From Pelistega sp. (GTDB lineage Bacteria > Pseudomonadota > Gammaproteobacteria > Burkholderiales > Burkholderiaceae_B): 64,000 bases of DNA. Positions 39,359-59,219 of the stretch are shown in pieces; position 1 is the stretch's first letter; every line of letters begins with the position of its first letter. The notes under the pieces are model-generated. The model worked only from the letters and a program-made list of their open reading frames with translations, was not told the DNA's origin and did no database searches. The stretch lies in the NCBI GenBank assembly GCA_030538255.1, contig JAUNUI010000007.1:52076-116075 (forward strand), in the 5' to 3' direction. Position numbers and translations under genes: made by a program.

Positions 39359-39497
39359 TTTCACTTATTATTTGCACATATAAGTTTTAATTGTTATTTG
39401 CACGTATAGTTTGCACTCAGATGCTTGCACTTAACATATGCCAATTACTTAAGCTATTCCGCACCATAATGTCCACTTGCTCTCACAGAGCCTATTT

Positions 39498-40379
39498 ATG
39501 CCTCTTATCCGACCTGTCTTCGCAAGCTTGAAACTGCGCTCTAGCATTGGGTTTAAGTTCGCCAACACGTTCATCCGCGTCATCATCGCAAGCTTGATTC
39601 TAGTATGTGCTCATCTGGCGACCACTGCGCACGCTTATGCCCAGCAAGCCACTAAGCCTCCCTCTGAGCAGTCCATCAGTCCTTGCGTCGCCTATCATAC
39701 CCAGGACCAGGGACGCGTGCATATTGTTAAAGTTGATCTGCGCTGCCCTGATGTGCAAATCATTAGCACACCTAAAGAACAACGCAACATTACGACGAGT
39801 AATTTCGCCTATGCAAATAAGACCACGGTGGCGATTAATGGTGCCTTCTACGATGAGCAAAATTACCCCTTAGGTTTAAATGTCACCGATGGTCGCCCTT
39901 GGACGAAGAGCCAAGATAAAAAAGCCTATAGTTTTCTAGCATGCACCAAGCAAGGCGCCTGCCATATTGAACCCTTTAACCGTACTACGGTCTATCAAAC
40001 CCAATGGCATACCGTGGTCTCAGGTTGGCAAAGTCTTATTAATGGCCAATATCAATGTGCCCCAGGCAGTCCACGAATCTGCCATAGCAATGCCCGTAAC
40101 CCCCATCCCCGCACCGCTGTCGGTGTCAGTGATAATAAGCGTTATCTGTATATGATGGTGGTTGAGGGGCGCCAGGAGAACTTTAAGGGCTATACCCTGA
40201 ACCAAGTCGCCCGCGTATTTAAGCAATTAGGCGTAAATCAAGCAATTAATTTAGATGGCGGCGGCAGCAGTACCTTAGTTCTAAAGAATCGTCGGATGAA
40301 TCAATTGCCTTCACAGCAATTGTTCTTCGAGCGCAATGTGGCGAATCATCTTGGAGTGATTGATCATACGCCACGATAA
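39498..40379 (+). CDS. phosphodiester glycosidase family protein, exported
   Basis: A 293-residue protein with an N-terminal signal peptide (hydrophobic core VIIASLILVCAHLATTAHA, after about 25 basic residues). The mature part is a phosphodiester glycosidase (NAGPA/DUF2233) domain, as shown by VAINGAFYD, RPWTKSQ, NPHPRTAVGVSDN and AINLDGGGSSTLVLKN (catalytic Asp-Gly-Gly-Gly region). Members cleave sugar-phosphate diesters in the periplasm; substrate here is unknown. I chose ATG at 39498 after AGAG; a TTG at 39477 is also open. The last 24 codons (from 40308) recur in diverged form at 47731-47802, next to the pseudouridine synthase gene. This suggests that the two genes were once convergent neighbours and an insertion now parts them. 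Confidence 0.82.
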   Translation: MPLIRPVFASLKLRSSIGFKFANTFIRVIIASLILVCAHLATTAHAYAQQATKPPSEQSISPCVAYHTQDQGRVHIVKVDLRCPDVQIISTPKEQRNITTSNFAYANKTTVAINGAFYDEQNYPLGLNVTDGRPWTKSQDKKAYSFLACTKQGACHIEPFNRTTVYQTQWHTVVSGWQSLINGQYQCAPGSPRICHSNARNPHPRTAVGVSDNKRYLYMMVVEGRQENFKGYTLNQVARVFKQLGVNQAINLDGGGSSTLVLKNRRMNQLPSQQLFFERNVANHLGVIDHTPR

Positions 40380-40389
40380 TTATTATCAC

Positions 40390-41625
40390 TTACGATTCAG
40401 CCTCATTACCACTCTTATTTGTGAGCAATCCTGCACACGATAGCACTGCCACTAAAATTGCCAAGATAATGTAAATAATCAGGACAGTGTAATAGCCATA
40501 AGAACTCGCTAGTGTTAATGCAATAACAGAATAAACAAATCCCATCACCACCACAAAACTTAATTGTAATGAAAAAAATGTTGCCTTCGCTCTCATCGTC
40601 GAGGCCTTATCCATAATCACTGTTGAGATTGCAGCTAATAAAGCAGGATTAATCAGAGAATACAAACCTATCGCAATATAAACATCGGCAACTGATGCAC
40701 TACCTGTAGTAAGTGGTAATAAGAAAATTAAGGCTAGCGCTTGCAAGGTAATCAATAACTGGACTGTTCTGTTGCGCCCAAACCGTTTAATTAACAGCAA
40801 AATAAGCATTGCTGAAACTACGCCTATGATTGAGCCGTATATTTTCGTAACGAAACCAATCTCCTGTATTGACCATCCTAAATCAACAAGCATTGGATTA
40901 ATTAATACATAAGCCGAGCTAAATCCTATAGGTAAAATCAGAAGAAAGAGAAACCATGCTTTATGCACCTTACAAAAGAAAAATATCTGTTTAATTAAGC
41001 CCTGTTTCGACTCAAGCAAAACCTCTTTTCCAGAAAGAGCATGTACTAAAATAGGCTCTTTATAAAACAATACCTGAATAAGCGATAATGCAGTGAGCAA
41101 AGCCAAAATAATAACTGCGCCTTGCCATTGAAGTTGCTCATAAAATATCAGCACAACACCACCGCCAATTATGTTACCAACTAAATTACTTGCATACTGT
41201 ATAGCATTAGCATTTTGACGCTCACCTTCTGCAAAAATTTTACAAGCTAACCCATCTACTGAGACGTCTTGCAAGCAGGTCATCACGCTATAAATTAAAA
41301 ACAAAGCTAATACAAGATAAAACTGTTCAACGATATGTACAAAACTGATGATTACCAATAACACAGTCATACTTAGTTGCGCAATGATTAGCCACCCTCT
41401 ATAGTGCCCCTTAAAACAAGTCGGTAGATAATCCACTAGCAAGGCAAGTACTATCTTCCCTGCTAGTGGCAACATCACCAGATTAATGAGCGCCAACTGC
41501 TCCAGTGGCAGCCCTAAACCCCTTAAGACAACTACAGAGGCCGCCAAGAGAAATGAAATCCCTACATACTGGCTCATATATAGAGTTACAAGCATTAACC
41601 AAGGCTTGTGATGGACGTTTTGCAT
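40390..41625 (-). CDS. MFS permease, RhtX/FptX-like siderophore transporter
   Basis: A 411-residue major facilitator protein with about twelve membrane helices. It resembles the RhtX/FptX group of single-protein ferric-siderophore permeases of the inner membrane (YMSQYVGISFLLAASVVVLR start; VDYLPTCFKGHYRGWLI; YSVMTCLQDVSVDGLA with the Asp-Gly-Leu-Ala motif near helix 4). Group placement is from memory; AmpG-like muropeptide transporters are the nearest alternative. RBS AGAGAAG. It is the last gene of the leftward iron operon, 14 bp after the TonB receptor gene, so it would carry the ligand from periplasm to cytoplasm. The region is AT-richer than the surroundings by eye. Confidence 0.75.
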   Translation of the reverse strand: MQNVHHKPWLMLVTLYMSQYVGISFLLAASVVVLRGLGLPLEQLALINLVMLPLAGKIVLALLVDYLPTCFKGHYRGWLIIAQLSMTVLLVIISFVHIVEQFYLVLALFLIYSVMTCLQDVSVDGLACKIFAEGERQNANAIQYASNLVGNIIGGGVVLIFYEQLQWQGAVIILALLTALSLIQVLFYKEPILVHALSGKEVLLESKQGLIKQIFFFCKVHKAWFLFLLILPIGFSSAYVLINPMLVDLGWSIQEIGFVTKIYGSIIGVVSAMLILLLIKRFGRNRTVQLLITLQALALIFLLPLTTGSASVADVYIAIGLYSLINPALLAAISTVIMDKASTMRAKATFFSLQLSFVVVMGFVYSVIALTLASSYGYYTVLIIYIILAILVAVLSCAGLLTNKSGNEAES

Positions 41626-41639
41626 GCACTTCTCTTTAA

Positions 41640-43868
41640 TTAAAATTTATAACTATAATTAAGACCTACCGTACGTCCCATCGCAGGCAACCCTGCATAG
41701 CCAGGCATAATGCCAAATGCGTGATACTTACGATTTGTTAAGTTCTTTGTCCAAACCACAAGATCATGGTGCTTACTCTGAATACCCATTGAGGCATCAA
41801 GCAATACATAACTCGGTAATTTTTGTATATTATCTGGCTGTGCATATCGGCTTCCCACATAGCGTATATTGACATCACCCAAAAACTGAGACTCACCTAA
41901 GAAACCCGCATGGAATGGTTTAGAGTTATAGCTTATGCCTAAGCTACCACTGAACTTAGCAGCCTGTGGCAATTGATTTCCCTTCGTTGTAATTTGACTC
42001 GATTCAGTAGGAACCCGTGTTACTTTGGTATTTAGGTACATCATATCGGCCTTAAATCGCCACTGCTCATTCATCTGCCAGAATACCCCAGTCTCAACTC
42101 CTCGCGTACGCGTATCCGCATTGCCTGTTCCTGTTAAGTAGGAAGGGTAAAGAACTGTTGTTACGTGGTCATCTTTAACTTTGTTATTAAACAAGGCAAG
42201 ATCAAATCCTAAACTACCATCTTCAGATAGAAATTTAGTACCAATTTCGCTGGAGACAATTTTTGCGGCTTTATAGGGATGATTATCTTTAGCAAAGGCA
42301 ATATTCGTTCCGTAATCTGCAAAACCACCAAACTTATTGCCAAAACTTTGTAGTGCATATATACGCCACTCTGGTGTTAAAGCATAATTTATACCCAGAC
42401 GCCCACTAAGAAAACTATCACTAATTTTGTGTTTTTCTGTATAAGCTGACTTAGGAATATTTGGGTTTGCCGTCCATGTACCTGTATATTTAAGGGATTC
42501 ATGGCTATATCGAGCTCCCGCGATTATTTTTAAAGCCTCAGTGACTGGTAAGGTTAACTCACCAAATATGGCTTTTGTTTCAAAATTAAACTCTCGATCT
42601 ATGACCGCATTGAATGGGTCTGCCCCCACCACAGGCCCACGATCTGTTGGCCCTCTATCCCAAAGATAAATACCACGTATAGCATCATAATTAAAGTCAC
42701 GCTTTCGTTTCTCTAAATAGACACCAGCCACCCATGCCAAACCCGAATCTAACTCTGAAACTAATTTGAACTCTTGTGAGAATTGACCTAAGCGCTCATT
42801 AATATTCTGTCGATTGTTGCTCCCCTGCGCATAATAATTGTTTAGCAATGGTCGCATCGGTGCAGGTATTCCCATTGAGTCATAAAGCACACCCAGCATA
42901 TCTAAAGGACGTAATGGACGATAGACATGCGCACGATGACGGTGATAAGCTGTCGTGGATTCTAAAGTCGCAAAATCAAATTCATGTTTAAACTTCAATG
43001 AAATACCTGCATTTTTGCGATAGGCATTATGTGACAACCCATTGGTTTTTGTACTATAGTTAAATGGATCCGATAAGATAATCGGTATATCATTCTTACG
43101 TTCATCATAATAAACACTTAGTATGGCATCGTTACGTTCATTATCATTCCAACGTAGTTTTGCTTGTACTGCATTATTTTTTTTATTATTCAACGGCCTA
43201 CCAGTATCACTATCTTTGATGTAATCATCTTGCACCTCCGCTTGTGCGGCAATTCTGAATGACCATTCATCAGAGAGAGGTACATTTAACACCCCATTAA
43301 TCCCTCTTAGCTTATGGTTTCCCAAGCGGGTACCAATGTGCGATTCAAATTCTGAATGTGGGTCAACAGTTTTAATAATAACGTTACCCGCTTCGGACTT
43401 CGAACCAAACAATGTTCCTTGCGGCCCCTTAGCCACCTCAACTCGCTCAACATCAAGTAAAGGTCGTGCCAAACCTGTTTTACCATTACTAACACCATCC
43501 ACTACCACATCAACAGAGTTATCATCCATGCTTGTATTGGTTAAGGATCCAACTCCCCGTACCCAGATCGAGCTCGTTGAAGCATTACCACCATTATGGA
43601 TATTGATGCTCGGCAATGATGCCAGTGACTCCATCACATTTTTAAATCCCCTTCTTTCAATTTGCCTATAATCTATAACATCAATCATAAAGGGGGCATC
43701 TAGACGGCTTTCTTTTAAGCCTCGTGAGTACACTACAATGGGTTCAAGCTCAGTTACCACTGAATCATCTACCGAGGTAATATCGTTACTAGCTGAATCA
43801 TTAGCATAAGCCATGTTTAAAGACAAATAGGCACTTACTAATAGAAGAACAGATTGTTTAATTTTCAT
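41640..43868 (-). CDS. TonB-dependent outer-membrane siderophore receptor
   Basis: A 742-residue receptor. A signal peptide (MKIKQSVLLLVSAYLSLNMAYA) is followed by a TonB-box-like segment TELEPIVVYSRG, the plug domain (FMIDVIDYRQIERRGFKNVM, WVRGVGSLTNTSMDDNSVDV, VERVEVAKGPQGTLFGSKSEAG) and a 22-stranded barrel ending in YSYKF with the terminal Phe. I start at ATG 43868 after GGAAAGGG, because the signal peptide begins there; 13 codons further upstream are open but overlap the Fur box. The protein imports a ferric siderophore, or xenobiotic iron chelate, using TonB energy. The Fur box at 43889-43907 is directly upstream. No siderophore synthesis genes are near, so an outside siderophore is the likely ligand. 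Confidence 0.92.
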   Translation of the reverse strand: MKIKQSVLLLVSAYLSLNMAYANDSASNDITSVDDSVVTELEPIVVYSRGLKESRLDAPFMIDVIDYRQIERRGFKNVMESLASLPSINIHNGGNASTSSIWVRGVGSLTNTSMDDNSVDVVVDGVSNGKTGLARPLLDVERVEVAKGPQGTLFGSKSEAGNVIIKTVDPHSEFESHIGTRLGNHKLRGINGVLNVPLSDEWSFRIAAQAEVQDDYIKDSDTGRPLNNKKNNAVQAKLRWNDNERNDAILSVYYDERKNDIPIILSDPFNYSTKTNGLSHNAYRKNAGISLKFKHEFDFATLESTTAYHRHRAHVYRPLRPLDMLGVLYDSMGIPAPMRPLLNNYYAQGSNNRQNINERLGQFSQEFKLVSELDSGLAWVAGVYLEKRKRDFNYDAIRGIYLWDRGPTDRGPVVGADPFNAVIDREFNFETKAIFGELTLPVTEALKIIAGARYSHESLKYTGTWTANPNIPKSAYTEKHKISDSFLSGRLGINYALTPEWRIYALQSFGNKFGGFADYGTNIAFAKDNHPYKAAKIVSSEIGTKFLSEDGSLGFDLALFNNKVKDDHVTTVLYPSYLTGTGNADTRTRGVETGVFWQMNEQWRFKADMMYLNTKVTRVPTESSQITTKGNQLPQAAKFSGSLGISYNSKPFHAGFLGESQFLGDVNIRYVGSRYAQPDNIQKLPSYVLLDASMGIQSKHHDLVVWTKNLTNRKYHAFGIMPGYAGLPAMGRTVGLNYSYKF

Positions 43869-43888
43869 TTCCCTTTCCTGCTTTAAAT

Positions 43889-43907
43889 AATAATGATAAT
43901 CATTCAA
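43889..43907. promoter_or_regulatory. Fur box upstream of the TonB receptor
   Basis: AATAATGATAATCATTCAA matches the Fur consensus GATAATGATAATCATTATC at 15 consecutive central bases. It lies in the 42-bp gap between the MATE stop and the receptor start, giving the receptor and MFS genes their own iron control point inside the cluster. Confidence 0.8.
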
Positions 43908-43910
43908 TAT

Positions 43911-45248
43911 TTAGTTGAATTTTTTTTGATGCTTTCTATAGACTGAAAATAAGGAGGTAAGCAAATATAAAGAAGCGGTTAATATGCCAACCATTATTGC
44001 CTGCCAAATTTTAGCCAACGAATTCAATTCGTAAAACCACCCTTGTTGAAAGACAAATAACAACGGTAATGCAATCAACCAATATGCAATAACGATACCT
44101 AGTAATGGTCTAATAAATTCTTCAAAACCACGTAAGATTCCACCCAAAACCATCTGCAGGCTATCAAAAACTAAGAAACCCATAAAATATAGCAAGACAC
44201 TGCTAGCAATGCTTTGCACGTCTTTATCTAAGGTAAATAGCAAAATTATCGTCTTATGCCCAACACTTAACAAAATAATAATAAACAGGCTATACAGTAC
44301 AAACGTGCTTAGGGCACCTATCAATGTATTTCTAAGTGCATTATTTTTAATACTTTTATTTATGGAAACCTGAATGGTTGATGCACTGCCCAACGCCAAT
44401 GGAATCATGACAATACACATCGCTATATTGATCATTATTTGATGAGCAGCAATAAATTTAGACCCTAGACTAGCTGCTGAAAAAGCAATTATCGCCAATG
44501 CTAAAATTTGCAAAACTAGCGCTATACCAATTGGCAATCCCTCCTTGAGGAGCAATACAGCATCTTTAAATGTAATGTCCCGCCCTACTTTCTTAGACAC
44601 AAATAACTCGGGAATTACTTTTTTTGTTTGTTTCAATAAATACCATAAACATATGTAAGCACTAATAACAGTGCCAATGCCGCAGCCAACACCACCGAGA
44701 GCGGGGATAAACCAAACGCCATTCACCATCACATAACTGAATGCAAAGTTAAGGGTGAGCAGCAAAATAGAAACTTGCATAATCGTATTGAGCTTTTTGT
44801 GGCCTTCACACACAAACCTAAGCATTGACATCGCAACAAGTGCTGGCATAGCAAAAGCAATACACCATAGATAGAGTATTGCTATATTGGCTACTTCAGC
44901 ATCAGAAATAACATAACCAATTAAGTTTGCGGCAATTATGACCAGTATCGTGCCCACACACGCTAATTGAATGGCTAATTTTTTAGCTATTTCAAATAAT
45001 TGTTTTCTTTCTTGGCCTTGCTCTAGCGTCTGCGCCTTAGCAAACTTAGGCACAAGCACATACAAAATACCCACGAGGAGAATATAAATCGTTGACCAAA
45101 CAGCGCTCCCTAGGCCTACCGCAGCAAGGTCCGCATAATGAAATCTTCCTGCCATCAAGGTATCAATTAAACTCAAAGATGCTTGGCACAGTTGAATGAA
45201 CATTAAAGGCAAGGCTAGTTTAATAAGCTGCATATATCCTTCGAGCAA
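43911..45248 (-). CDS. MATE family efflux transporter
   Basis: A 445-residue inner-membrane protein with about twelve helices of the MATE (multi antimicrobial extrusion) family, seen in LIKLALPLMFIQLCQASLSLIDTLMAG at the start and GGVGCGIGTVIS in the middle. It exports small molecules using a sodium or proton gradient. It lies 9 bp after the siderophore-interacting reductase gene and 42 bp before the TonB receptor gene on the same strand. The context suggests export of the siderophore after iron release (recycling), or of a related molecule; that is inference. Codon use is AT-rich like its neighbours. Confidence 0.87.
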   Translation of the reverse strand: MLEGYMQLIKLALPLMFIQLCQASLSLIDTLMAGRFHYADLAAVGLGSAVWSTIYILLVGILYVLVPKFAKAQTLEQGQERKQLFEIAKKLAIQLACVGTILVIIAANLIGYVISDAEVANIAILYLWCIAFAMPALVAMSMLRFVCEGHKKLNTIMQVSILLLTLNFAFSYVMVNGVWFIPALGGVGCGIGTVISAYICLWYLLKQTKKVIPELFVSKKVGRDITFKDAVLLLKEGLPIGIALVLQILALAIIAFSAASLGSKFIAAHQIMINIAMCIVMIPLALGSASTIQVSINKSIKNNALRNTLIGALSTFVLYSLFIIILLSVGHKTIILLFTLDKDVQSIASSVLLYFMGFLVFDSLQMVLGGILRGFEEFIRPLLGIVIAYWLIALPLLFVFQQGWFYELNSLAKIWQAIMVGILTASLYLLTSLFSVYRKHQKKFN

Positions 45249-45257
45249 ATTATTATC

Positions 45258-46361
45258 TTATTCATCCTCATCTGCGGACCAATACCCTTTGATATGATTA
45301 CTCTTCCCATCAATTGACATCTGATTACGGAGATAATGACGAATTTTTTTTGCTGCTTCCCGCTCAAGCCCCCCCCAAGCGCCATCGAGCGTATCAATAC
45401 CTTTTAACAAATCAAGAACTGGTCTAGCTTGTTCTCCCGTTTGATAGTTTAGATACTGCACTACTGTATTAGTTGGCATCCTTACATGTTTGAAATATGA
45501 CAGTTCTTCGACATCCCGCATCAAAATCACCACAATTGGTGGCTCTACATTGCTCCATAGCTCAAGTATCCCTGCTATGGCTGGATAAGCTGTTTCATCC
45601 GCAATAAGAATATGTTTACCTTTCTGCAAATGCGCATGTCTATCTGTCATCTCAGTACGGCTAAATATAATATCGCCCACTTCAAGTGATTGAATCCATT
45701 GTCCACCCGGACTGCCGCCATGTATGTATACATCAATGGCTCCCTTATATTGCGCTTCATTGGTATTATTTTCTGCAAATCGTAATGTATATATACGCAT
45801 ATCACGATTCATATTTCTTACTAATTTCATTCTACGCTTTGAGCTTAATACCCCTAGAAACCATAGAAATACACGATCAAAGACTCGCATCAGGAAATTT
45901 TTCTTTGTGTTCTCCTTGTCGTCTTCTTTGGGTTTATTAATTTTTTTTAAGACAAGGCCATAGGCGTAAGCTGCGTATTCATCAGGGAATGTCGCCATAC
46001 TTTTAATCTCAATACGCATCATATGCTTACTTGGCATTGATTTGCCTATCACCTCAAAAAACCTTCTTCTATTACCTCTTAGGCTCTCACCTTGCTTTGA
46101 CATTGCATAATAGGCCAAATAAAGAACTTTCTCTTCAATAGGTCCTTTAATCATGAATGGAATATATAATTCAGACTTTTCACTATTCTGTATTGTCTCA
46201 ATCAATAAGCCTTCTTCATAAATATCAAGAATATGTACTGCCGTATACTCTTCACCACCATAGTAATTTGCTACCGCCAATAATTCATCAAGATGATCAT
46301 GGTTTAAGTGCTCCATAATGTCCAGCTTGTCGTCATGGTTTGCTAGGGGTGTTGTATTCAT
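45258..46361 (-). CDS. siderophore-interacting reductase with DUF2470 domain
   Basis: A 367-residue protein with two parts. Residues 1 to about 95 (IMEHLNHDHLDELLAVANYY) match the DUF2470 domain also seen in haem-utilisation proteins. The rest is a siderophore-interacting (SIP, FAD-dependent ferric reductase) protein: MMRIEIKSM, RIYTLRFAENN, GGSPGGQWIQ for the flavin and phosphate site, ADETAYPAIAGILE, and the terminal KGYW motif typical of SIP. It would reduce and release iron from imported ferric siderophore in the cytoplasm. The DUF2470 fusion is known but uncommon to my knowledge. It is the first gene of the iron operon, and a near-consensus Fur box overlaps its promoter (46429-46447). 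RBS AGAGAG. Confidence 0.87.
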   Translation of the reverse strand: MNTTPLANHDDKLDIMEHLNHDHLDELLAVANYYGGEEYTAVHILDIYEEGLLIETIQNSEKSELYIPFMIKGPIEEKVLYLAYYAMSKQGESLRGNRRRFFEVIGKSMPSKHMMRIEIKSMATFPDEYAAYAYGLVLKKINKPKEDDKENTKKNFLMRVFDRVFLWFLGVLSSKRRMKLVRNMNRDMRIYTLRFAENNTNEAQYKGAIDVYIHGGSPGGQWIQSLEVGDIIFSRTEMTDRHAHLQKGKHILIADETAYPAIAGILELWSNVEPPIVVILMRDVEELSYFKHVRMPTNTVVQYLNYQTGEQARPVLDLLKGIDTLDGAWGGLEREAAKKIRHYLRNQMSIDGKSNHIKGYWSADEDE

Positions 46362-46705
46362 TAGATAACTCTCTTTTCTACTAAAATTGCTTTAGCTAAT
46401 TTTTGATTGTATTATAATAGCACAATATAATAATGATAATCATTATCATTTAAAGTTGTTTTTGCTGTATTTACGCATCACAATCCTATTCCTAGCGATA
46501 GGCATCCGATAGTTGAAATTGAATTTGCTTTGTATTTTTTGTGAAAGTTCTTCTGAATACTTTCAGATTGCTTATTCTGTAGTGAGCCGTACTCTTCTTT
46601 TAAATTCGTATTTTGAGAAATAAGCCACGCATCAGAAATCTATGTGGAAACTATTTTACAGTCTCCCTATAACAAAAATAACTGAGCATTTACTAAAAAA
46701 CCGAG
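46362..46705. other. AT-rich intergenic region with iron-operon promoter
   Basis: This 344-bp stretch holds the Fur box (46429-46447) and a reverse-strand TATAAT (46416-46411) that together form the iron-operon promoter. The remainder (46450-46705) is AT-rich and without a gene; a 7-bp stem TGAAAGT/ACTTTCA lies at 46542-46565. No function is visible for it. Confidence 0.6.
46429..46447. promoter_or_regulatory. near-consensus Fur box of the iron operon
   Basis: AATAATGATAATCATTATC differs from the 19-bp Fur consensus only at its first base. It lies upstream of the siderophore-interacting reductase gene and covers the -35 region of a reverse-strand promoter whose -10 is TATAAT (46416-46411). 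Iron-replete repression of the operon is the expected result. Confidence 0.9.
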
Positions 46706-47254
46706 CTACTTGATTCCCAATACTTCTTTTTGTTGCTCAATATACATTTTCTTTGCTTCTGCAATATTATTTTTACGCGCATTAATAATGAGTTTTTCTT
46801 CGATATCAAGTCTAGCTTTATTCAGATTACTAAGTCTTGCGTGATGTGAGTCAAAAGCTTGTCTTGCTTCATCCATAGGCAAGCCAGATTGTCGTCTCTT
46901 TGGTAAACTGTGTGCTAGGTTTACGTAGTGATATTCGTCCTTATCTTGGATGAGTTGAATATGCCGTTCTGCCGAGTCAAGTTCTATTAGGGCCGCATTC
47001 AAACTAGATAGCATTTCCTTGCTATTACTGTAACGTTCAAGATCTCCTTGTAAGATACCTTTTTCAATAGCCAATAGAATTGAAAGCTTATTATTCCTCC
47101 CTATTTTAGAGATATATCCTAATAATTCAGTTCGTGTTGTGTTTAAATTCAGTGCCGTATTCGATGTGCTATGCTCTAAAGCAAAACCTGCCTCTAACAC
47201 TAGAATCCGCTCTAACTGCTCGAGAGCCTGAGTAATAGTTTCTCCTTCACTCAT
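46706..47254 (-). CDS. hypothetical protein, second gene of unknown module
   Basis: A 182-residue soluble protein I do not recognise. It begins MSEGETITQALEQLERILV and is almost fully helical, with coiled-coil-like stretches (LNKARLDIEEKLIINARKNN, AEAKKMYIEQQKEVLG), no cysteine, no signal peptide and no membrane helix. I chose ATG at 47254, which overlaps the upstream gene's stop by 8 bp, so the two are translationally coupled; an ATG 24 bp earlier is less likely. The region is as AT-rich as the iron genes and lies within the inserted block. Coupled small soluble gene pairs of this kind are often toxin-antitoxin or phage-derived, but no motif supports a specific call. Confidence 0.62.
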   Translation of the reverse strand: MSEGETITQALEQLERILVLEAGFALEHSTSNTALNLNTTRTELLGYISKIGRNNKLSILLAIEKGILQGDLERYSNSKEMLSSLNAALIELDSAERHIQLIQDKDEYHYVNLAHSLPKRRQSGLPMDEARQAFDSHHARLSNLNKARLDIEEKLIINARKNNIAEAKKMYIEQQKEVLGIK

Positions 47255-47513
47255 CCAACCACCCTTCCCCATACTCAATATCCGCCGTTTCAGTTCTTAA
47301 ACCCTTCTGACGGATAAAGTCCGCACCTCTTCTTGCTTTTAAACCCTTAAGGGCATAAGCAGGGATGATCGCATATCGTAACCACTGCCATGCAGTCTGC
47401 TCGTCTCCTGCTTTGCCTGCAGCCAGTGACTCCATAAGGTAAATACTATTTTGTGTTAAACCCTCGCGTTGACGCTCAGTCTCTGACAAGTAGCTCTTTG
47501 GCAAGGTATCCAT
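47247..47513 (-). CDS. hypothetical protein, first gene of unknown module
   Basis: An 88-residue protein starting MDTLPKSYLSETERQREGLT, with a middle stretch TAWQWLRYAIIPAYALKGLK and an acidic end (DIEYGEGWLDE). No family was recognised. It is soluble, basic in the middle, and probably helical. Its stop overlaps the next gene's ATG (ATGAGTGA, 47247-47254). The last 22 codons of its gene are copied at 47664-47728 with one mismatch in 65 bases, which shows a recent duplication. The GC level and position put it in the inserted block. Confidence 0.6.
   Translation of the reverse strand: MDTLPKSYLSETERQREGLTQNSIYLMESLAAGKAGDEQTAWQWLRYAIIPAYALKGLKARRGADFIRQKGLRTETADIEYGEGWLDE
47267..47331. repeat. 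65-bp duplicated segment, copy inside hypothetical gene
   Basis: This 65-bp stretch in the 3' part of the 88-aa gene recurs at 47664-47728 in the same orientation, 397 bp away, with a single difference (A at 47301, G at 47698). Confidence 0.85.
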
Positions 47514-47663
47514 AATTACTCCTTTAAGCTAAAACTAAGAAGCCATATTTATTACAAAGATCATGTGCTTAGTTTACACCGCCTAAATCGAATTGCAATA
47601 AGGATGTATTCAGCATGGCTAGCATTATCCTACTTCGATCATTTCAGCTATGCTGTTTTCTAA

Positions 47664-47728
47664 CCCCATACTCAATATCCGCCGTTTCAGTTCTTAAGCC
47701 CTTCTGACGGATAAAGTCCGCACCTCTT
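47664..47728 (-). pseudogene. partial duplicate of the 88-aa gene
   Basis: A copy of 47267-47331 with one mismatch. On the reverse strand it keeps the same frame (GADFIRQKGL, TADIEYG) but has neither the gene's start nor its real end; a TGA comes seven codons later. It abuts the glycosidase remnant at 47731. It marks a junction made by duplication or by a second insertion. Confidence 0.8.
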
Positions 47729-47730
47729 GC

Positions 47731-47802
47731 TCTTCTCAGCAATTGTTCTTCGATCGTAATGTGGCGAATCATCTTGCGGTGACCAGCATTACGCCACATT
47801 AA
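47731..47802 (+). pseudogene. stranded 3' end of a phosphodiester glycosidase gene
   Basis: In the forward strand this 72-bp stretch reads SSQQLFFDRNVANHLAVTSI then TPH and stop. The intact glycosidase gene ends PSQQLFFERNVANHLGVIDH then TPR and stop (40308-40379). By hand count about 57 of 72 bases agree, with exact runs of 17-18 bases. The remnant's stop codon overlaps the stop of the convergent pseudouridine synthase gene by two bases. It is therefore most likely the native gene end left behind when the block 40380-47730 came in together with a foreign version of the gene. Confidence 0.8.
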
Positions 47803-48857
47803 ATCCCTACCACCCCTTCCAACTCCCGCTGACTTCTAAAGCAGCGCTCTTGCCCTGTGACAGGATCCTTAAAACGAATCTCCCGCGCCAATAACTGCAA
47901 GGGTCGGCTAAAGTCATCCACCGCTCTTGCGGGTAATAACTCAGGGTAAAACTCATCGCCCATAATCGGCAAGCCTAAACCATTCATATGCACACGCAGC
48001 TGATGCTTCTTCCCGGTATAAGGTTCAAGTAAGTAATGTGCCCACGCTTGATTATGTTTAATAATTGAAATATCTGTGCGGCTATTTGGTGACATGGCGT
48101 TATGCGCCACAACAGTCTGCATTTGAGAAACTCGTGCTCCCCACTCTTGTGCTGGACTGTTTAATGGTTGAAGCAAGCGCTCTTTTTCACCTGCCCCCGC
48201 CACTTGCTCACCTACTATCTCAGCAATCTCGACAGCCGTCGCACCAGCACGCTCTTGCATGGTAAAGTAGCTTGGGCTTTTTTCAATAAAGCTCTCTCGG
48301 CGTAAGGGGAATGCAAGATCAGCGCGATAGGGTGCGATGCACTCATAAGTTTTATGCACATCGCGTGATTGGAATAAGCTTTGGTAAGCACCGCGATAGC
48401 GTTTATCAGCACAGAACACCAAGACCCCAGCGGTATCACGATCTAAGCGATGGATTGGGCTAATTTCTTCATTGCCCAATAGACACCGCAGGCGCACCAA
48501 AGCAGTCTCTTGCAAGTAGCGCCCGCCTGGAATACTGGCGAGAAAGTGCGGCTTATCAATCACCACGAGGGTCTCATCTTGATATAAGACTGCAATCTCA
48601 TCAGGCACCCGTACTTCTTGCTCTACTTCGCGGTAATACCAGAGCCATGAGTCGGGCAGATATGGGCTATCCACGCGCAAGACTTCCCCCGCTTGGGTCA
48701 CCATATCACCACGCGCCAAGCGCTCCTGGATAATATCAGCTGACATATGAGGGAAGCGTTGAATTAAAAAGGCCAAGAGATTTGGCCAGGATTCTTTCGG
48801 TAAATAAAGCCGACTCGCACTGACACCAGCACGAATCGGCAAAGGACTTCTTAACAT
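47799..48857 (-). CDS. RluA-family RNA pseudouridine synthase
   Basis: A 352-residue pseudouridine synthase. The catalytic motif HRLDRDTAGVLVF contains the active Asp; VLYQDETLVVIDKP and YTGKKHQLRVHMNGLGLPIMGD are RluA-family segments. The N-terminal 90 residues (LLAFLIQRFPHMSADIIQERL) resemble an S4-like RNA-binding part. The target RNA position (23S rRNA or tRNA) cannot be decided. Its stop overlaps the remnant of the glycosidase gene. The start is 8 bp after the pntB stop, so it may be the last gene of a pntA-pntB transcript. Confidence 0.87.
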   Translation of the reverse strand: MLRSPLPIRAGVSASRLYLPKESWPNLLAFLIQRFPHMSADIIQERLARGDMVTQAGEVLRVDSPYLPDSWLWYYREVEQEVRVPDEIAVLYQDETLVVIDKPHFLASIPGGRYLQETALVRLRCLLGNEEISPIHRLDRDTAGVLVFCADKRYRGAYQSLFQSRDVHKTYECIAPYRADLAFPLRRESFIEKSPSYFTMQERAGATAVEIAEIVGEQVAGAGEKERLLQPLNSPAQEWGARVSQMQTVVAHNAMSPNSRTDISIIKHNQAWAHYLLEPYTGKKHQLRVHMNGLGLPIMGDEFYPELLPARAVDDFSRPLQLLAREIRFKDPVTGQERCFRSQRELEGVVGI

Positions 48858-48865
48858 CTATTCAA

Positions 48866-50323
48866 CTACGATTTTAAGGCTTGTAAAATCTCATCGACTT
48901 TATCTTTAGCATCACCAAAACACATCACCGCATTCTCACGGAAGAATAATGGATTCTGTACGCCTGCATAACCTGTATTCATCGAGCGCTTAAAGACCAC
49001 CACGTTCTGGGCCTTCCACACTTCAAGTACGGGCATGCCTGCAATTGGGCTCGCTGGGTCTTCGCTGGCCGCTGGGTTCACGGTGTCATTTGCACCAATC
49101 ACCAAGACCGTATCGGTATCAGGGAAGTCCTCATTAATTTCGTCCATCTCTAATACGATATCATACGGCACCTTCGCTTCGGCCAAGAGCACGTTCATAT
49201 GACCTGGTAAGCGACCTGCTACCGGGTGGATGCCAAAGCGAACATTAATGCCGCGCTTACGCAACAGGGCCGTAATATCAGCCACAGGGTATTGCGCTTG
49301 TGCCACCGCCATGCCATAGCCTGGGGTGATGATCACTGAAGATGAATTCTTCAATAAATCAGCCACTTCGACCGCACTCATCTCACGGTATTCGCCCATC
49401 TCTTCGGTGCTGCTACTGCTACTTGAACCGTCGGTACCGAAGCCACCAGCAATCACCGAGATGAACGAACGGTTCATCGCCTTACACATAATGTAGGACA
49501 GAATCGCACCTGAAGAACCGACTAGTGCACCGGTTACGATTAGCAAGTCATTCGATAGCATAAAACCAGCTGCTGCCGCTGCCCAACCTGAGTAGGAGTT
49601 CAGCATTGAAACCACCACTGGCATATCGGCACCACCAATTGAGGCCACCAAGTGCCAACCTAGGGCGAGAGCAATAAGGGTCATGATAAATAAGGCCCAT
49701 GTACCGCCCATATTTTCCATAAAGACCATCATCAAGATGAAGCTAACCACAATCGCTGCTAAGTTCAGCTTATGCTTATGTGGCAAACTTAGTGGTTTAG
49801 AACTCATGCGACCATTTAACTTGCCAAAAGCCACAATCGAGCCAGTAAAGGTCACCGCACCAATAAAGACCCCAAGGAAGACTTCAACCAAGTGAATCTT
49901 CATCAATGTTAGCGCTTCACCCATATGTGAGGCAAAGCCTGGGGCAAATGAATTCGCCACGCCGACTGCTTCACGCATCTGCTCTAACTCAGCGCCAGCA
50001 TCGAAATAGCTGTTATAGCCCACCAGAACCGCGGCTAAACCCACAAAGCTATGCAAGATGGCGACCAACTCCGGCATCTGCGTCATCTCGACTTTGCGTG
50101 CCAAGTGAATACCGATAGCACCACCAATCACCATCGCGATAATAATGAAAACACGACCTTCAACACTCGGTGTGGCAATCGCGGCAAATAGCGCAATCGC
50201 CATACCAATAATGCCGCTGGTCACACCCATACGTGCCGTTTCTTGCTTTGATAGCCCAGCTAAACTTGCAATAAAGAAGAGAGCGGCGACGATATACGCC
50301 ATAAAAATTAAACCTGATGACAT
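48866..50323 (-). CDS. pntB: NAD(P) transhydrogenase subunit beta
   Basis: A 485-residue membrane subunit of the proton-pumping transhydrogenase, which uses the proton gradient to reduce NADP+ with NADH. About nine helices occupy the N-terminal 270 residues ([16 protein letters not shown]...). A glycine- and serine-rich linker follows ([20 protein letters not shown]), then the NADP-binding domain III with [35 protein letters not shown] and [17 protein letters not shown]. Length compares with 462 in E. coli. ATG lies 4 bp after the pntA stop, so the two are coupled. Confidence 0.95.
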
Positions 50324-50327
50324 GTTC

Positions 50328-51869
50328 TTATTCTCCCTTATCTTTCTGGAACATCTTCAGCATTCTGCGTGTGACAAAGAAACCACCCGCAATATTAATA
50401 CTGGCTATTAAAATCGCAATAAAGGCGAATAGATTAATCAGGAAACCCCCTTGACCATATTGCAAGACAGCCCCAATCACGATAATGCCCGAGATGGCAT
50501 TGGTCACGCTCATCAGCGGCGTATGCAAGGCATGCGTCACATTCCAAACCACGTAATAACCTACAACACATGACAGTACAAAGACCGTAAAGTGCGATAA
50601 AAAGGAGGCCGGTGCATGTAAACCCAGTTGTACTAATAAGAACACCGCAACTGCCAAACCGCCCCACTTAAGAATGGGCGAAGTAGCTTTCGCCTCTTTC
50701 ACAACAGGTGCCGCTTGCGCCGCTTGGGTAGGTGCTGCAGAGACGGCAATCGGCGGCGGCGGGAAAGTCACCTCACCTTGCGTCACCACACTCATATTAC
50801 GCACCACCACATCTTCAGGGTCGAGGGTAATTTCACCATTCTTCTCTTTGCAGACAAGTTTGCTGAAATTTACTAAGTTAGTGGCATACAGCTGAGAGGA
50901 CTGGGCCGCTAAACGACCTGGCAAGTCCGTATAGCCAATGACTTTTACCCCGTTCTCAGTGACGAACAACTCACCTGGCACGGTATATTCACAGTTACCG
51001 CCTGCTTGCGCCGCCATATCCACAATCACCGAGCCTGGCTTCATGCTATCCACCATCTCACGGGTAATCAATTTCGGGGCAGGCTTACCTGGAATCAAAG
51101 CAGTGGTGATAATAATATCGACTTCTTTGGCTTGCTCAGCAAATAAAGCCATCTCTGCCGCGATGAATTCAGGCGACATGGTTTTCGCATAGCCATCAGA
51201 AGAAGAACCATCTTCATTGGTGAAATCCAATTTCAGGAACTGGCCACCCATAGACTGAATCTGCTCAGCCACTTCCAAGCGCGTGTCAAAAGCGCGCACA
51301 ATTGCCCCTAAAGAGCCTGCCGCACCAATCGCTGCCAAACCTGCAACACCCGCACCAATCACTAAAACCTTAGCGGGTGGCACCTTACCTGCAGCCGTAA
51401 TCTGACCGGTAAAAAAGCGACCGAATTCATGCGCCGCCTCAATCACAGCGCGATAACCGCCAATATTCGCCATGGACGATAAGGCATCAAGCGACTGCGC
51501 TCTTGAAATACGAGGCACCATATCCATAGCCAGAACGGTAACTTGACGCTCAGCCAGACTTTGCACAAGCTCTGGGTTCTGCGCTGGCCAGATAAAACTC
51601 ACCAAGGTCGTGCCTGCTTGTAACTTAGCCACTTCGGCCTCGTTCGGTGCATTCACCTTATAAATCAGTGGGCTCATCCAGACTTCATCTTGGGTCACGA
51701 TCTTCGCACCCGCTTCAGCATAGGCGTTATCACTGAAACTCGCCAGTTGACCTGCGCCCGTCTCCACGGCCACTTCAAAACCCAACTTCAGTAGCTGTGC
51801 CACTGTAGTTGGCGTTGCAGCGACACGGGTTTCTCCGAGCGACAACTCTCTTGGAATACCTATTTGCAC
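50328..51869 (-). CDS. pntA: NAD(P) transhydrogenase subunit alpha
   Basis: A 513-residue subunit in one chain (E. coli PntA has 510). It holds the NAD-binding domain I ([60 protein letters not shown]) and, after an Ala/Pro-rich linker near residue 380, four membrane helices at the C terminus. In some bacteria this protein is split into two genes; here it is not. RBS AAGGAGAG is present. A promoter candidate is listed separately (51912-51940). It supplies NADPH for biosynthesis. Confidence 0.95.
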
Positions 51870-51911
51870 AGTACTCTCCTTTGATTGAAAAAATTTTATA
51901 TGGATTATTCG

Positions 51912-51940
51912 AGAATAAACGATAGTGGCTTAATTGGCAA
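51912..51940 (-). promoter_or_regulatory. possible pntAB promoter
   Basis: On the reverse strand TTGCCA (51940-51935) and TATTCT (51917-51912) are separated by 17 bp, about 43 bases before the pntA start. Both boxes are near the sigma-70 consensus. Confidence 0.45.
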
Positions 51941-52158
51941 ACAATACTGTTATGATTTTTTAACAATTTTGCCTAAATCAGCCTTTTGATTAACTGAAGT
52001 CTGTGTTTTCTTCCTGAAAGTTCGTTCTTTCTTCCTTATTATGTTTCTTTATGCCTAGGATATACCCTTTATGTTTGCTGCTTTTAGCAACGATTAAGGT
52101 AAAATAAACCCTTAAAATCCTCTTTTTCACCACCTTTACATATATAACTCGCGCACGC

Positions 52159-53391
52159 ATGTCCAATCCCGCCCAAGCCTTGGTCTCTATACAGCACATT
52201 AGTAAGTCCTTCGAGTTGGACCGAAATCGTCGCGTAAAAGCCCTATCTGATTTTAGTTTAGAGATTTATCCAGGCGAGACAGTGGGTTTAGTAGGTGAGT
52301 CCGGTTGCGGCAAGTCCACTGCAGGGCGGGTGATTTTAGGTCTTTATCAAGCCAGTTCTGGCCAAGTCTTTATCAATGGCTGCAATGTCCATCAGGCCAA
52401 GGGGGCCCAGAAGAAAGCCTTAATCCGTCAAGCGCAGATGATCTTCCAAGACCCTTATGCTAGCCTCAACCCACGTTCAACGGTCTTCGACATTATTGCC
52501 GAACCGCTAGAAATTCATGCGATTTACACCAAGCACGAGGATCTGAAAGCACGAGTCTACGAACTTTTAGCCGAAGTGGGCCTACGTCCAGAGCATGCCA
52601 ATCGCTATCCCCATGAATTCTCAGGTGGCCAGCGCCAGCGCATTGGGATTGCCCGAGCTTTGGCATTAGAGCCGAAGTTTATTGTCGCGGACGAACCGAT
52701 TTCAGCCCTCGATGTCTCAATTCAAGCGCAAATTGTCTTGCTCCTACAGAAACTACAAGCGGAAAAAGGCCTCACCTATCTGTTTATTGCCCATGATTTA
52801 TCCATGGTGAAGTATATATCCGACCGCATTGGCGTGATGTATCTGGGACACCTCGTCGAGCTCGCCCCGAGCCATACCTTGTATGAGCAACCGATGCATC
52901 CCTACACGCAAGCGCTGCTTTCCGCGATTCCGATTGCTGACCCCAATGTGGAAGATAGTCGTCAACGTATTATCTTAGAGGGTGAAGTGCCAAGCGCCAT
53001 CAACCCACCATCGGGCTGCGTCTTTCATACGCGTTGCAGACATCGCCAAGCACAATGTGTGAGCCAAAAGCCACCGCTACAAGAATGGCAGCCGGGGCAT
53101 TATGTCGCTTGTCATCTCGTGCCAGCACAGTCCACAGGTACAAGCAGCAGTACAACACAGTCTAAGGACAACTCAATTCAGCAAAGCACTAAACCCTATC
53201 CACAAGACACTGGCCAAGCAATGCAAGGCTCTGCTATAGCATCAACTTCGGCCATGCAAGTAACGAAACAAGCGACGCCATCTACCTCGGCCATGCAATT
53301 AACGAAGCAAGCAACGCCATCTACCTCGGCTATACAAGAAGCAAAGCAAGCGGCGCCATATACTTTAAGCATTCAAGGAGCGAGTCAATGA
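52159..53391 (+). CDS. peptide ABC transporter ATPase, DppF/OppF type, repeat tail
   Basis: A 410-residue ATPase. Walker A is [11 protein letters not shown], the signature [16 protein letters not shown], Walker [15 protein letters not shown], and the end of the normal domain holds the cysteine cluster [15 protein letters not shown] of the oligopeptide class. The family ends near residue 325; the further 85 residues are Ser/Thr/Gln-rich and include three copies of a 13-residue unit (STSAMQ-TKQATP). The tandem repeat DNA is listed at 53242-53358. ATG at 52159 has no clear ribosome site. It is the first gene of a group ATPase-permease-permease-ATPase-binding protein, and the stop overlaps the next ATG by 4 bp (ATGA). 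Confidence 0.88.
53242..53358. repeat. three 39-bp tandem repeats in the ATPase gene
   Basis: Units at 53242-53280, 53281-53319 and 53320-53358, each coding for 13 residues, keep frame and diverge only slightly; a fourth, decayed unit may follow up to 53388. Variation in copy number would lengthen or shorten the protein tail. Confidence 0.8.
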
Positions 53392-54323
53392 AAACCTATA
53401 TTGCCAAGCGCTTCTTAATGATGTTGGGCACTATCTTTATTATTGCCTCACTGACCTTTCTCTTAATGCATTTAATCCCAGGCTCACCGTTTGATCAGGA
53501 CCGTAGCTTTAATCCGGTGGTTGAGCAGAATTTGCGTGCCTTTTATAAATTAGACCAACCCTTGTATGTGCAGTACTTTAATTATATGGGCTCATTACTG
53601 ACCTTGGATTTTGGTCCATCCATTGCCAATCCCGACACCACGGTAGGAAATCTCTTGCAACGTGGCTTTCCGATTTCTTTCGAATTGGGTATCTGGGCGA
53701 TTAGTCTGGCCGTGCTCTCAGGCATTACGCTCGGTGTCTTAGCTGCGCTACGACATAACGGCCTGATTGATTACTTTGCCATGGCCTTTGCCGTCTTAGG
53801 CATCTCAATCCCGAATTTCGTCTTGGCGACTTTATTAATTCAGGAGCTTTCGGTGAATCTGGGTTGGTTCCCTGCGGCCACTTGGCGCACCCCCATGCAC
53901 ATGGTCTTGCCGATTATTGCACTGGCCACAACCCCAATGGCAATTATTGCGCGCCTCACTCGCTCCAGCATGTTAGAAACCCTCACCCAAGACTATATTC
54001 GCACTGCCCAAGCCAAGGGCTTATCCAGCTGGCGCATTGTCATCCGCCATGCTTTACGCAATGCTTTGATGCCTGTGGTAACCCTACTCGGATCGCTTTT
54101 AGCCGCGACCTTAACTGGCACCTTCGTGATTGAGAAGATTTTCGCCATCCCAGGTATGGGTCGCTACTTTATCGATTCCATCACCAATCGCGACTACCCC
54201 GTGATTATGGGTACTACCGTGTTTTACAGCAGCATCTTAGTCTTTATGCTGTTCTTAGTGGATATGGTCTACTCTCTGCTCGACCCACGCATTCGCCTGC
54301 ATAAGAAAGCGGAGGCTGAATAA
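53388..54323 (+). CDS. peptide ABC transporter permease, DppB/OppB type
   Basis: A 311-residue inner-membrane permease with about six helices. Start [20 protein letters not shown]; the EAA loop that contacts the ATPase is [40 protein letters not shown] is a family end motif. It carries peptides (di- or oligopeptides) in a heterodimer with the next gene's product. The ATG overlaps the previous stop by 4 bp. Also possible: nickel- or opine-specific variants of the same family. Confidence 0.9.
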
Positions 54324-55498
54324 TGACTGAAAATAAAAAAAGCCCAAGTGCAGAACTTCAGCCTACGCACGTAGTTAAGGCTGAACCACATCAGCACACG
54401 CTATCCAATTCGGCACAGCTTGAGGCGCTGACACAGACATCACAGGCTGAGCCACATCACACGAAGCCTGATTCAGAACTAAGCGTCATGCCGCACCAAG
54501 TGGAATCTTCGTCAACACAAGTAACAACACAAACAATGTCGCAGCATCAAGCGATATCTCTTCTAAACAGCGCCTCAGACACCATCCCTGACGAGTGGTT
54601 TGCGCCAAGAGACCGCAGCCTTGACTGCACCGCACCGATTAGCATGCGACCTAGCTTATCCTACTGGTCCGATGCTTGGCTGCGTCTACGTAAAAACAAA
54701 CTCGCCATGCTTGGCCTGGCAATCCTGATTCTGATGCTTGGCATGGCGATCTTTGCTCCCATGATCTCTGCGCATTCAGTCACCGCTCAAGTATTAAGCG
54801 CACAAAACCTACCTCCTTCAAGTGAATATTGGTTTGGCACCGATGACTTGGGGCGTGATGTCTTTGTTCGCACCTGGTATGGCGCACGCATCTCGCTGTT
54901 TGTCGGGATTATGGCCGCCCTAATTGATTTCTTTATTGGTGTCATCTATGGTGGCTATAGTGGACTGAAGGGTGGACGCACCGATACGATTATGATGCGT
55001 ATCGTAGAGATCCTGTATGGCCTCCCTTATTTATTAATTGTGATCCTGCTCATGGTGGTGATGGGACCGAGCCTGCTCACGATTATTATTGCCCTCAGCA
55101 TTACAGGCTGGATTAGTATGGCGCGTATTGTGCGCGGACAAATCTTACAGTTAAAGAATCAAGAATACGTAACAGCCTCACGTTCGTTTGGCGCAAGCAC
55201 TTGGCGGATTATTCGTAAGAATCTATTACCGAACACCATGGGGCCGATTATTGTGCAGATGACCTTAACCGTTCCGAGTGCCATTTTTGCCGAAGCCTTT
55301 TTAAGTTTTCTGGGACTGGGTATTCAAGCCCCCTTCGCCTCGTGGGGAGTGATGACCAATGATGCGCTGGGTGTTATTCTGACAGGAGACTGGTGGCAAC
55401 TATTCTTCCCGGCGCTTGGCATCTCCTTAACCATGTTCGCCTTCAATGTCTTAGGTGATGGTCTGCAAGATGCGCTCGATCCTAAATTACGTAGATAG
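54323..55498 (+). CDS. peptide ABC transporter permease, DppC/OppC type, long N terminus
   Basis: A 391-residue permease, second half of the heterodimer. The membrane part begins near residue 120 (WLRLRKNKLAMLGLAILILM), with ENLPPSSEYWFGTDDLGRDV-type sequence and the EAA loop QEYVTASRSFGASTWRIIRK. The first 90 residues are Gln/Ser/Thr/His-rich and not part of the family (normal length about 300). They would be cytoplasmic and unstructured. Gene overlaps the DppB stop (TAATGA). The next ATPase gene comes 160 bp later. Confidence 0.88.
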   Translation: MTENKKSPSAELQPTHVVKAEPHQHTLSNSAQLEALTQTSQAEPHHTKPDSELSVMPHQVESSSTQVTTQTMSQHQAISLLNSASDTIPDEWFAPRDRSLDCTAPISMRPSLSYWSDAWLRLRKNKLAMLGLAILILMLGMAIFAPMISAHSVTAQVLSAQNLPPSSEYWFGTDDLGRDVFVRTWYGARISLFVGIMAALIDFFIGVIYGGYSGLKGGRTDTIMMRIVEILYGLPYLLIVILLMVVMGPSLLTIIIALSITGWISMARIVRGQILQLKNQEYVTASRSFGASTWRIIRKNLLPNTMGPIIVQMTLTVPSAIFAEAFLSFLGLGIQAPFASWGVMTNDALGVILTGDWWQLFFPALGISLTMFAFNVLGDGLQDALDPKLRR

Positions 55499-55561
55499 TT
55501 AAGCTAGCAACGGAAACACAGTGCAGAGCCAGGCGCCAAGGAATTAAGTAAGGGATATACC

Positions 55562-55606
55562 ATGACGAGCCATGCTTCAGAGAAGCCCGAAACACGTAAA
55601 CCATAA
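55562..55606 (+). CDS. possible 14-aa peptide between permease and ATPase genes
   Basis: A short frame MTSHASEKPETRKP with ATG after AAGGGATATAC. The ribosome site is better than that of the following ATPase gene. It may be a leader peptide that couples translation or a chance frame. No homologue is known to me. Confidence 0.3.
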   Translation: MTSHASEKPETRKP

Positions 55607-55658
55607 AGCACCTCTGCACAAAGAAGTCTTAAACAGATAACAATTGAAGAAACACACG

Positions 55659-56645
55659 ATGAGCCAAGAACCCCTATTATCGATTCGCCAACTCAGTATA
55701 GATTTTAAAGTCTATGGTGGCACGGTGCATGCCGTGCGGGGCTTAAATCTTGAGGTACGTCGCGGTGAAACCCTAGCAATTGTCGGCGAGTCTGGCTGTG
55801 GCAAATCGGTCAGTTGCTTAGCGGTCATGGGTCTTCTAGCGAAGCCAGCGGCCCACATTAGTCAAGGTGAAATTATCTTTGATGGTCAGGATATCTTGCA
55901 CTACTCACGGCGTGAACACAAGCAACTTCAAGGTCGCCGTATCGCCATGATTTTCCAGGACCCAATGACGGCGCTTAATCCTAGTCTGAGCATCGGCGAA
56001 CAATTAACCGAAGGGGTACGTAAACATCAAGGGCTAAGCAAGCAACAAGCCCATGCCAAAGCCGCCGATATCCTAAGTCTCGTCGGCATTGCTAATCCGC
56101 ACGAGCGTCTCAGCCAATACCCCCATCAATTATCAGGTGGCCTGCGTCAGCGTATCGTGATTGCCATGGCCCTTATGTGCGACCCTGAACTCTTAATCGC
56201 CGATGAGCCCACGACTGCCTTGGATGTAACGATTCAAGCGCAAGTCTTGGAGCTGTTTGAGCAGATTCAGCGCAAAACTGGGATTGCGATTATTCTGATT
56301 ACCCATGATCTGGGCGTTGTCGCTAAGATTGCTGACCGTATTGCCGTCATGTATGCAGGTCAGTGCATTGAGAGTGGCACACGACAAGAGATTTTTTACC
56401 ATCCTAAGCACCCTTATACCCAAGGTCTACTCGCTTCCGTGCCGCGCTTAGATATGGCACGCAATAGCCTGCATCCAATTGATGGGCAACCGCCGGATTT
56501 GTTCGACCCTCCAAAATACTGTGCCTTCTATGCACGCTGTAAACAAGCCTTAGAGGTGTGTCATCATCTAGCGCCCAAGTCCTATACCTTAAGCCAGACT
56601 CACCAAGCCTTATGTTGGTTGGCGGATCAACGGGCGCCGTCATAG
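55659..56645 (+). CDS. peptide ABC transporter ATPase, DppD/OppD type
   Basis: A 328-residue ATPase with Walker [12 protein letters not shown], signature LSGGLRQRIVIAMALM, Walker B LLIADEPTTALDVT and the C-terminal cysteine cluster CAFYARCKQALEVC. Length is normal for OppD/DppD. I use ATG at 55659 because it starts MSQEPLLSIRQL at the domain; TTG at 55644 is in frame. It completes the ATPase pair with the gene at 52159. The order with one ATPase first and the other fourth is less common than the usual D-F adjacency. Confidence 0.88.
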   Translation: MSQEPLLSIRQLSIDFKVYGGTVHAVRGLNLEVRRGETLAIVGESGCGKSVSCLAVMGLLAKPAAHISQGEIIFDGQDILHYSRREHKQLQGRRIAMIFQDPMTALNPSLSIGEQLTEGVRKHQGLSKQQAHAKAADILSLVGIANPHERLSQYPHQLSGGLRQRIVIAMALMCDPELLIADEPTTALDVTIQAQVLELFEQIQRKTGIAIILITHDLGVVAKIADRIAVMYAGQCIESGTRQEIFYHPKHPYTQGLLASVPRLDMARNSLHPIDGQPPDLFDPPKYCAFYARCKQALEVCHHLAPKSYTLSQTHQALCWLADQRAPS

Positions 56646-59006: not shown

Positions 59007-59219
59007 TTATTCACCTACAACATCGTAGCCCGCATCCTCAATCGCCTCTTGAATCTGCTCTTCTGAGGCAGCCCCTGTGGTGCGGAAAGAAACTTTAGCC
59101 TCGGCCAAATTCACTTCGATTTCACTAATGCCAGGTAACTCTTCTAGGGCTACTGTCACATGCTTGACACAATTATTGCAGCTCATGCCCTCGACTTTTA
59201 ACACGACTGTATTACTCAT
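59007..59219 (-). CDS. heavy-metal-associated (CopZ-like) protein
   Basis: A 70-residue ferredoxin-fold HMA protein with the metal motif GMSCNNCVKHV (CxxC). Members carry copper(I) between partners such as CopA ATPases, or form part of them. Start ATG at 59219 is chosen because GGAAGG lies 9 bases before; the ATG at 59228 touches it. No copper ATPase or regulator lies adjacent, so its partner is elsewhere. Cytosolic. Confidence 0.88.
   Translation of the reverse strand: MSNTVVLKVEGMSCNNCVKHVTVALEELPGISEIEVNLAEAKVSFRTTGAASEEQIQEAIEDAGYDVVGE

Follow-up and report, generated by a model that had tools for sequence, protein, structure and literature searches.

Homology-facilitated illegitimate recombination (HFIR), and the duplication of a gene end upon single-crossover integration, have been described previously (PMC3240628). 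As far as the accessible text of that source goes, such events combine homology on one side with a gene-end duplication or an illegitimate join on the other, and HFIR usually leaves 3-10 bp of microhomology and a deletion. The e14 element of Escherichia coli K-12 lies behind icd, with a 163-bp pseudo-icd end as a duplicated region at its far side (PMC6379469, accessible portions), and the attP of an element of the e14/icd type carries the replacement sequence, according to the part of PMC10111431 that was available. Here, we report a locus in Pelistega sp. in which a block of iron-uptake genes lies between a phosphodiester glycosidase gene and a second, stranded copy of that gene's 3' end. It was found in a stretch of 64,000 nucleotides (the window; GCA_030538255.1, contig JAUNUI010000007.1, positions 52,076 to 116,075). 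The locus has an insertion-like anatomy, two duplications, a distinct composition, a receptor gene that is missing from the searched congeners and an orthologous cluster elsewhere. It is a real and well-marked insertion scar; the kind of event is already known and its traces are unusually readable. Like the cases described in PMC3240628, the locus would join a homologous side to one with a duplicated gene end or an illegitimate junction; judged by the available text, it differs in occurring naturally, over 7.4 kb, and in having a templated-looking scrap of 65 bases at the join. As in e14, a second copy of the end of the preceding gene stands at the far side of the block. In contrast to e14 as portrayed in the portions of its source at hand, no integrase or phage genes are seen, the repeat is 72 rather than 163 bases and the cargo is siderophore uptake.

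The full copy of the glycosidase gene (39477..40379, + strand; NAGPA domain, PF09992 E 1.7e-34) ends in 24 codons, stop included, that recur at 47731..47802 on the same strand. The two gene ends (40308-40379 and 47731-47802) align without gaps and are identical at 57 of 72 bases. The original prediction, made from the sequence alone, had counted about 57 of 72, which proved exact, and had reported exact runs of 17-18 bases; a run of 17 was borne out, but the longest is 19. A chance match was rejected, since the runner-up among ungapped 72-mer matches in the window reaches 35/72 on the + strand (34/72 on the − strand). A repeat listing of the window gives the pair as 51 nt at 90%. Searching the genome itself with the glycosidase protein returned two places, the gene and the remnant (E 2.6e-4 for the latter), and at the DNA level the match has an E-value of 4.6e-13. 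The reading frame is kept in both ends (CSSQQLFFDRNVANHLAVTSITPH in the full copy, LPSQQLFFERNVANHLGVIDHTPR in the remnant). Translation and coordinates also agree with the prediction that the stranded end is in frame and that its stop (47800-47802) overlaps the stop (47799-47801, minus strand) of an RluA-family pseudouridine synthase gene (PSU; 47799..48857, − strand; PF00849), which has best matches in 7/7 genus genomes. As predicted, we thus find a block that looks inserted behind the 3' end of the glycosidase gene, and beside PSU a gene end that was either displaced or duplicated.

We compared the two gene ends with the glycosidase genes of six congeners, five of which have one at a single place each (51-61% identity); the sixth, G001, has no match. 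Across a 42-base core, the two copies in our genome share 39/42 bases and 11/14 third positions, and each shares 3-8/14 third positions with the five congeners, indicating that neither copy is nearly as similar to any congener gene as it is to the other copy. The stranded end also contains a perfect 10-bp inverted repeat (47757-47766 and 47792-47801) that reaches the PSU stop; such a repeat occurs in 2 of 2000 mononucleotide shuffles. The full copy has an imperfect version of this repeat, which 3 of the 15 differences complete. In single-stranded form, the remnant has a better fold than shuffled versions of itself (z -3.0, against -0.5 for the full copy). Going by the partial literature available to us, template switching at a quasipalindrome could be the source of the perfected repeat, in which case some of the 15 differences may represent one multi-base event.

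A second duplication, absent from the original prediction, lies at the right end of the block. This direct repeat (47267-47331 and 47664-47728) is 65 nt long with 1 mismatch. Its right copy (47664..47728, − strand; 64/65 identical), which we call the o88' scrap, is a copy of codons about 61-83 of o88, the first gene of a two-gene unit (47247..47513, − strand); the second gene, o190 (46706..47278, − strand), is overlapped by o88. The scrap ends at 47728, two bases short of the start of the stranded gene end at 47731. The divergence of the two duplications is unequal (1/65 for the scrap, 15/72 for the gene end; Fisher p 3e-4), whereas a single event from identical sources followed by drift should have left them about equally diverged. 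The likelier explanation is that two differing glycosidase alleles met, the donor being a near relative; we prefer it over a gene-end duplication that predates the o88' scrap, which we consider less likely.

The block contains four transport-related genes. They encode an MFS transporter that is a distant relative of the RhtX/FptX siderophore importers (40390..41625, − strand; PF07690), a TonB-dependent receptor of the siderophore type (41640..43907, − strand; PF00593 and PF07715), a MATE exporter (43911..45248, − strand; PF01554, and TIGR00797 at 170 bits, over the cut-off of 147.4) and a siderophore-interacting protein of the ferric reductase type (SIP) with a DUF2470 domain (45258..46361, − strand; PF04954 and PF10615 over cut-offs). 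Both the receptor and the importer fell below siderophore-specific NCBIfam cut-offs (179.5 bits against 223.5 for TIGR01783, and 111 against 356 for TIGR02718, respectively). Ahead of the SIP gene is a palindrome resembling a Fur box (46429..46447), with 1 mismatch to a Fur consensus; when the window is shuffled, an equal match count is reached in 2 of 100 cases. By Pfam cut-offs, the block therefore has the components of a siderophore uptake cluster, namely an inner-membrane transporter, a TonB receptor and a SIP reductase, together with one Fur-like site. A Pfam scan detected no integrase domain among the block proteins, as had been anticipated, and a terminator scan of 46300-47900 found none. 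Attachment at a tRNA was rejected, the window having no tRNA.

The codon statistics rest on 42 hand-picked genes, namely 41 of the 51 listed open reading frames (ORFs; ten overlapping or doubtful ones were dropped) and o88; 36 of the 42, including the glycosidase gene itself, form the non-block set. G+C at third codon positions (GC3) is 0.32-0.36 in the four transport genes and 0.316 in o190, compared to 0.477±0.039 in the 36 other window genes; o88 is the exception in the block, at 0.455. From this composition, the DNA between the gene ends looks foreign. The comparison had been proposed together with the idea that the glycosidase was foreign as well. The transport genes bore out the first part, but the glycosidase is native in its GC (0.484), GC3 (0.503) and codon score (0.126, against a mean of 0.105±0.041 for the 36 genes), and its codon usage leaves a foreign origin unsupported unless the donor was a near relative. 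The fetched congener loci, by comparison, have 36-42% G+C.

We next consider the distribution of the block. At an E-value of 1e-60, the receptor was found in 6 of 268 family genomes (up to 4 candidates scored per genome): our own (G000); G214, from a different genus of the family, with 65% identity; and four others with 30-33%. None of the six congeners matches at this threshold; weaker matches in four of them (21-30%) are other receptors. Among 399 genomes of the order, our own included, one other matched at 1e-90, at 34% (up to 2 candidates scored per genome). On plasmids, a single record at 29.5% was found, and a plasmid source for the receptor was rejected. The G214 locus (L067) carries relatives of the MFS, receptor, MATE and SIP genes in the same order and on the same strand, at 51-64% identity (55% for MFS, 64-65% for the receptor). 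There, the four genes lie directly downstream of genes for a GNAT acetyltransferase, a Lys/Orn N-monooxygenase and a nonribosomal peptide synthetase (NRPS). Their GC3 is 0.31-0.37, compared to 0.39-0.44 in three neighbour genes, suggesting that the cluster may be foreign in G214 too.

In contrast to G214, our genome (2.95 Mb) has no match to the L067 monooxygenase or condensation domain at E 0.001. The block therefore appears to cover siderophore uptake alone, and suggests a lineage that holds the uptake half of such a system without the half that makes the siderophore; it would presumably import siderophores produced by others. Among the congeners, only G002 matches the monooxygenase and condensation-domain searches, and it does so in a different cluster. 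This separate NRPS cluster of the siderophore type (L084 and L085) has ABC transporters and a receptor of its own. Its N-monooxygenase may be broken, as the matches fall in three pieces in separate ORFs. An origin of the block in the G002 cluster was rejected, its two contigs having no tblastn match (1e-3) to the four genes. The case for transfer derives from composition and patchy distribution.

These observations lead us to favor, tentatively and at somewhat less than an even chance, a scenario in which homologous recombination at the 3' end of the glycosidase gene captured DNA on one side only and the opposite end was joined through template switching. A segment carrying the siderophore uptake half (MFS, TonB receptor, MATE and SIP), with o88/o190 at its end, would have been captured behind the resident glycosidase gene. 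On the left, the homology would have been provided by the glycosidase 3' end, through a single crossover if the donor was circular or HFIR if it was linear. On the right, a homology-poor join would have formed: synthesis may have returned to o88, 397 bases back, and copied 65 bases there before the join to the old glycosidase end. A near relative would have supplied the donor's piece of the glycosidase, which would explain the native look of the rebuilt gene and the 21% of bases at which the stranded end differs. As to natural transformability of the host, a ComEC-type domain is present in 7/7 genus genomes (stop-interrupted in G002), but E. coli and nine others of 14 controls match too. If capture did take place in this manner, the locus is a legible fossil of a gain of iron uptake in a bacterium in which XerC and XerD are the only tyrosine recombinases found; the eroded gene end and another, less worn scrap are both still present.

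Several points weigh against this scenario. Neither an empty site nor a second strain of the species was found, the six congeners being distant and arranged differently, and the absence of the block from the congeners may reflect loss there instead of gain here. The 51-64% identity of the block to its G214 counterpart is lower than that of pntB, used as a yardstick, in the main matches between our genome and 3 genomes of G214's genus (76-82%), and thus shows no recent transfer from the G214 lineage; in addition, the same Fur scan of L067 gave no Fur-like site. Because o88 and o190 occur at two other chromosomal places, the pair need not have arrived with the iron genes. At the right junction, near 47728/47731, a few bases at most are shared. 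Finally, the E, G and D of the motif ERxVANH[LI]GxxD are conserved in the full copy and in 5/5 fetched congener copies, and are altered in the stranded end. To judge from the residues, this looks like decay after the event, which would make the gene-end duplication older than the o88' scrap and imply two events.

The main alternative is the relic of a site-specific island of the e14/icd type, which would fit the anatomy. In that case, the element brought a replacement 3' end, the native end was displaced, and the integrase and some cargo were later lost. The target gene is indeed intact, and a direct repeat of its 3' end lies beyond the block, as in e14 (in the accessible portions of PMC6379469). 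The differences between the two ends are also gathered in the tail (4/45 bases in codons 1-15 versus 11/27 in codons 16-24, p 0.002), at a split chosen after the data were seen; the neighboring split gives 6/48 versus 9/24 (p 0.028). However, the block proteins lack an integrase domain, and the genome's two PF00589 matches are XerC and XerD (the genome-wide search covered tyrosine recombinases, not serine integrases or transposases). No viral contig shares the core, searched as an exact pattern with two free bases, and a host gene closely follows the glycosidase in the 5 congeners that have the gene, leaving no room for an element. We therefore regard an island relic as unlikely, although far from negligible. 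An older tandem glycosidase copy beside PSU, destroyed by insertion and inversion except for its last 24 codons, would require neither a second allele nor homologous recombination. It would fit the non-synonymous changes at conserved residues of the stranded end and the fact that this end has diverged far more than the o88' scrap next to it. Against it, no congener has two copies (one place in 5/6, none in G001), and a copy that still has the core bases and third positions noted above in common with the full gene would have to be young; we find this history quite unlikely.

The version put forward originally, in which homologous recombination introduced the block together with an entire foreign glycosidase, shares with the capture that we favor the meeting of two differing alleles at one locus, and is consistent with the unequal divergence of the two scraps. 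The native composition of the glycosidase argues against it, as does the G214 locus, where 19.4 kb were read and no glycosidase match adjoins the block, and we judge it very improbable. Its premise that the glycosidase and PSU genes were convergent neighbors did not hold up in relatives either: they are convergent in 0/5 congeners having both genes. They are tandem neighbors in G004 and lie apart in G006; in G002, G003 and G005, it is the dpp operon that the end of the glycosidase gene faces.

Gene order around PSU points to an inversion. PSU and the dpp operon lie side by side and diverge in 5/6 congeners, and the orthologue of g59280 faces the 3' end of PSU in the 4 congener loci where it was seen (G001, G002, G004 and G006). 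In the window, PSU and dpp are separated by pntBA and the PSU-pnt-dpp segment is flipped, which turns dpp toward g59280 and PSU toward the glycosidase. It follows that the block sits at one inversion breakpoint and that the convergence of PSU and the glycosidase is probably derived. We found no repeat linking the two breakpoints. A trace of the glycosidase at the other breakpoint was rejected after a blastn search of 58601-59300 gave no such match; just past the region searched, 40367-40379 and 59361-59373 match over 13 bases, with an E-value of 0.13.

The right end of the block carries a plasmid-associated gene pair that is also chromosomal without iron genes. o88 and o190 each occur at three places in our genome; the second copy (on C9) is similar to the window over 46697-47629 at 70%, the third is on C19, and no mobile gene was noticed when the ORF lists around these two copies were read by eye. 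In the family, o190 is present in 5/268 genomes, our own included. Each gene is found in 5 PLSDB plasmid records, all from Bartonella (for example, NZ_CP042964 and NZ_CP101113), with the same pairing and order as here and 37-53% identity. In three records that we read, the pair lies beside recombinase and conjugation genes in two and near toprim and restriction genes in one. Elsewhere, it lies near SLT and ParA-type genes in G208, and one copy in G004 adjoins a Zeta-toxin gene. Across relatives, which include chromosomal copies in the Pelistega group, the first gene encodes about 86-101 amino acids and the second about 150-195, with several copies in some genomes or plasmids. The unit is plasmid-borne and annotated as hypothetical in Bartonella; here, it is chromosomal and no function match was found. 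o190 has no NCBIfam or PADLOC match and no Pfam match at 0.01, and the matches for the pair are weak, the best being DUF357 in the o88 family (E 0.001); the NCBIfam scan covered o88 itself and not its relatives. A phage origin was rejected: phage glycosidase matches are partial, at 26-44%, viral contigs hold no relative of o190 or o88, and phage records hold none of o88 (o190 was not searched there). The pair might be an undescribed dispersing module that moves between intergenic sites and drags neighbor genes along, the o88' scrap then being an insertion footprint and not repair noise, a proposal that we consider improbable. Neither the locus nor the pair was met in the literature searched, mostly at listing or abstract level, and we make no claim that either is unpublished. 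The finding does flag an unnamed gene pair that this genome shares with Bartonella plasmids.

Additional features of the region were noted. The inverted PSU-pntBA-dpp segment spans 47799-60020 of the window. Among the fetched loci, only the window has pntBA between PSU and dpp, and only the window has glcB between the UvrD-like and isochorismatase-like genes. At the second breakpoint is a gene (59010-59219, − strand) for a small protein that we take to resemble heavy-metal-associated domains, with an MxCxxC motif visible by eye.

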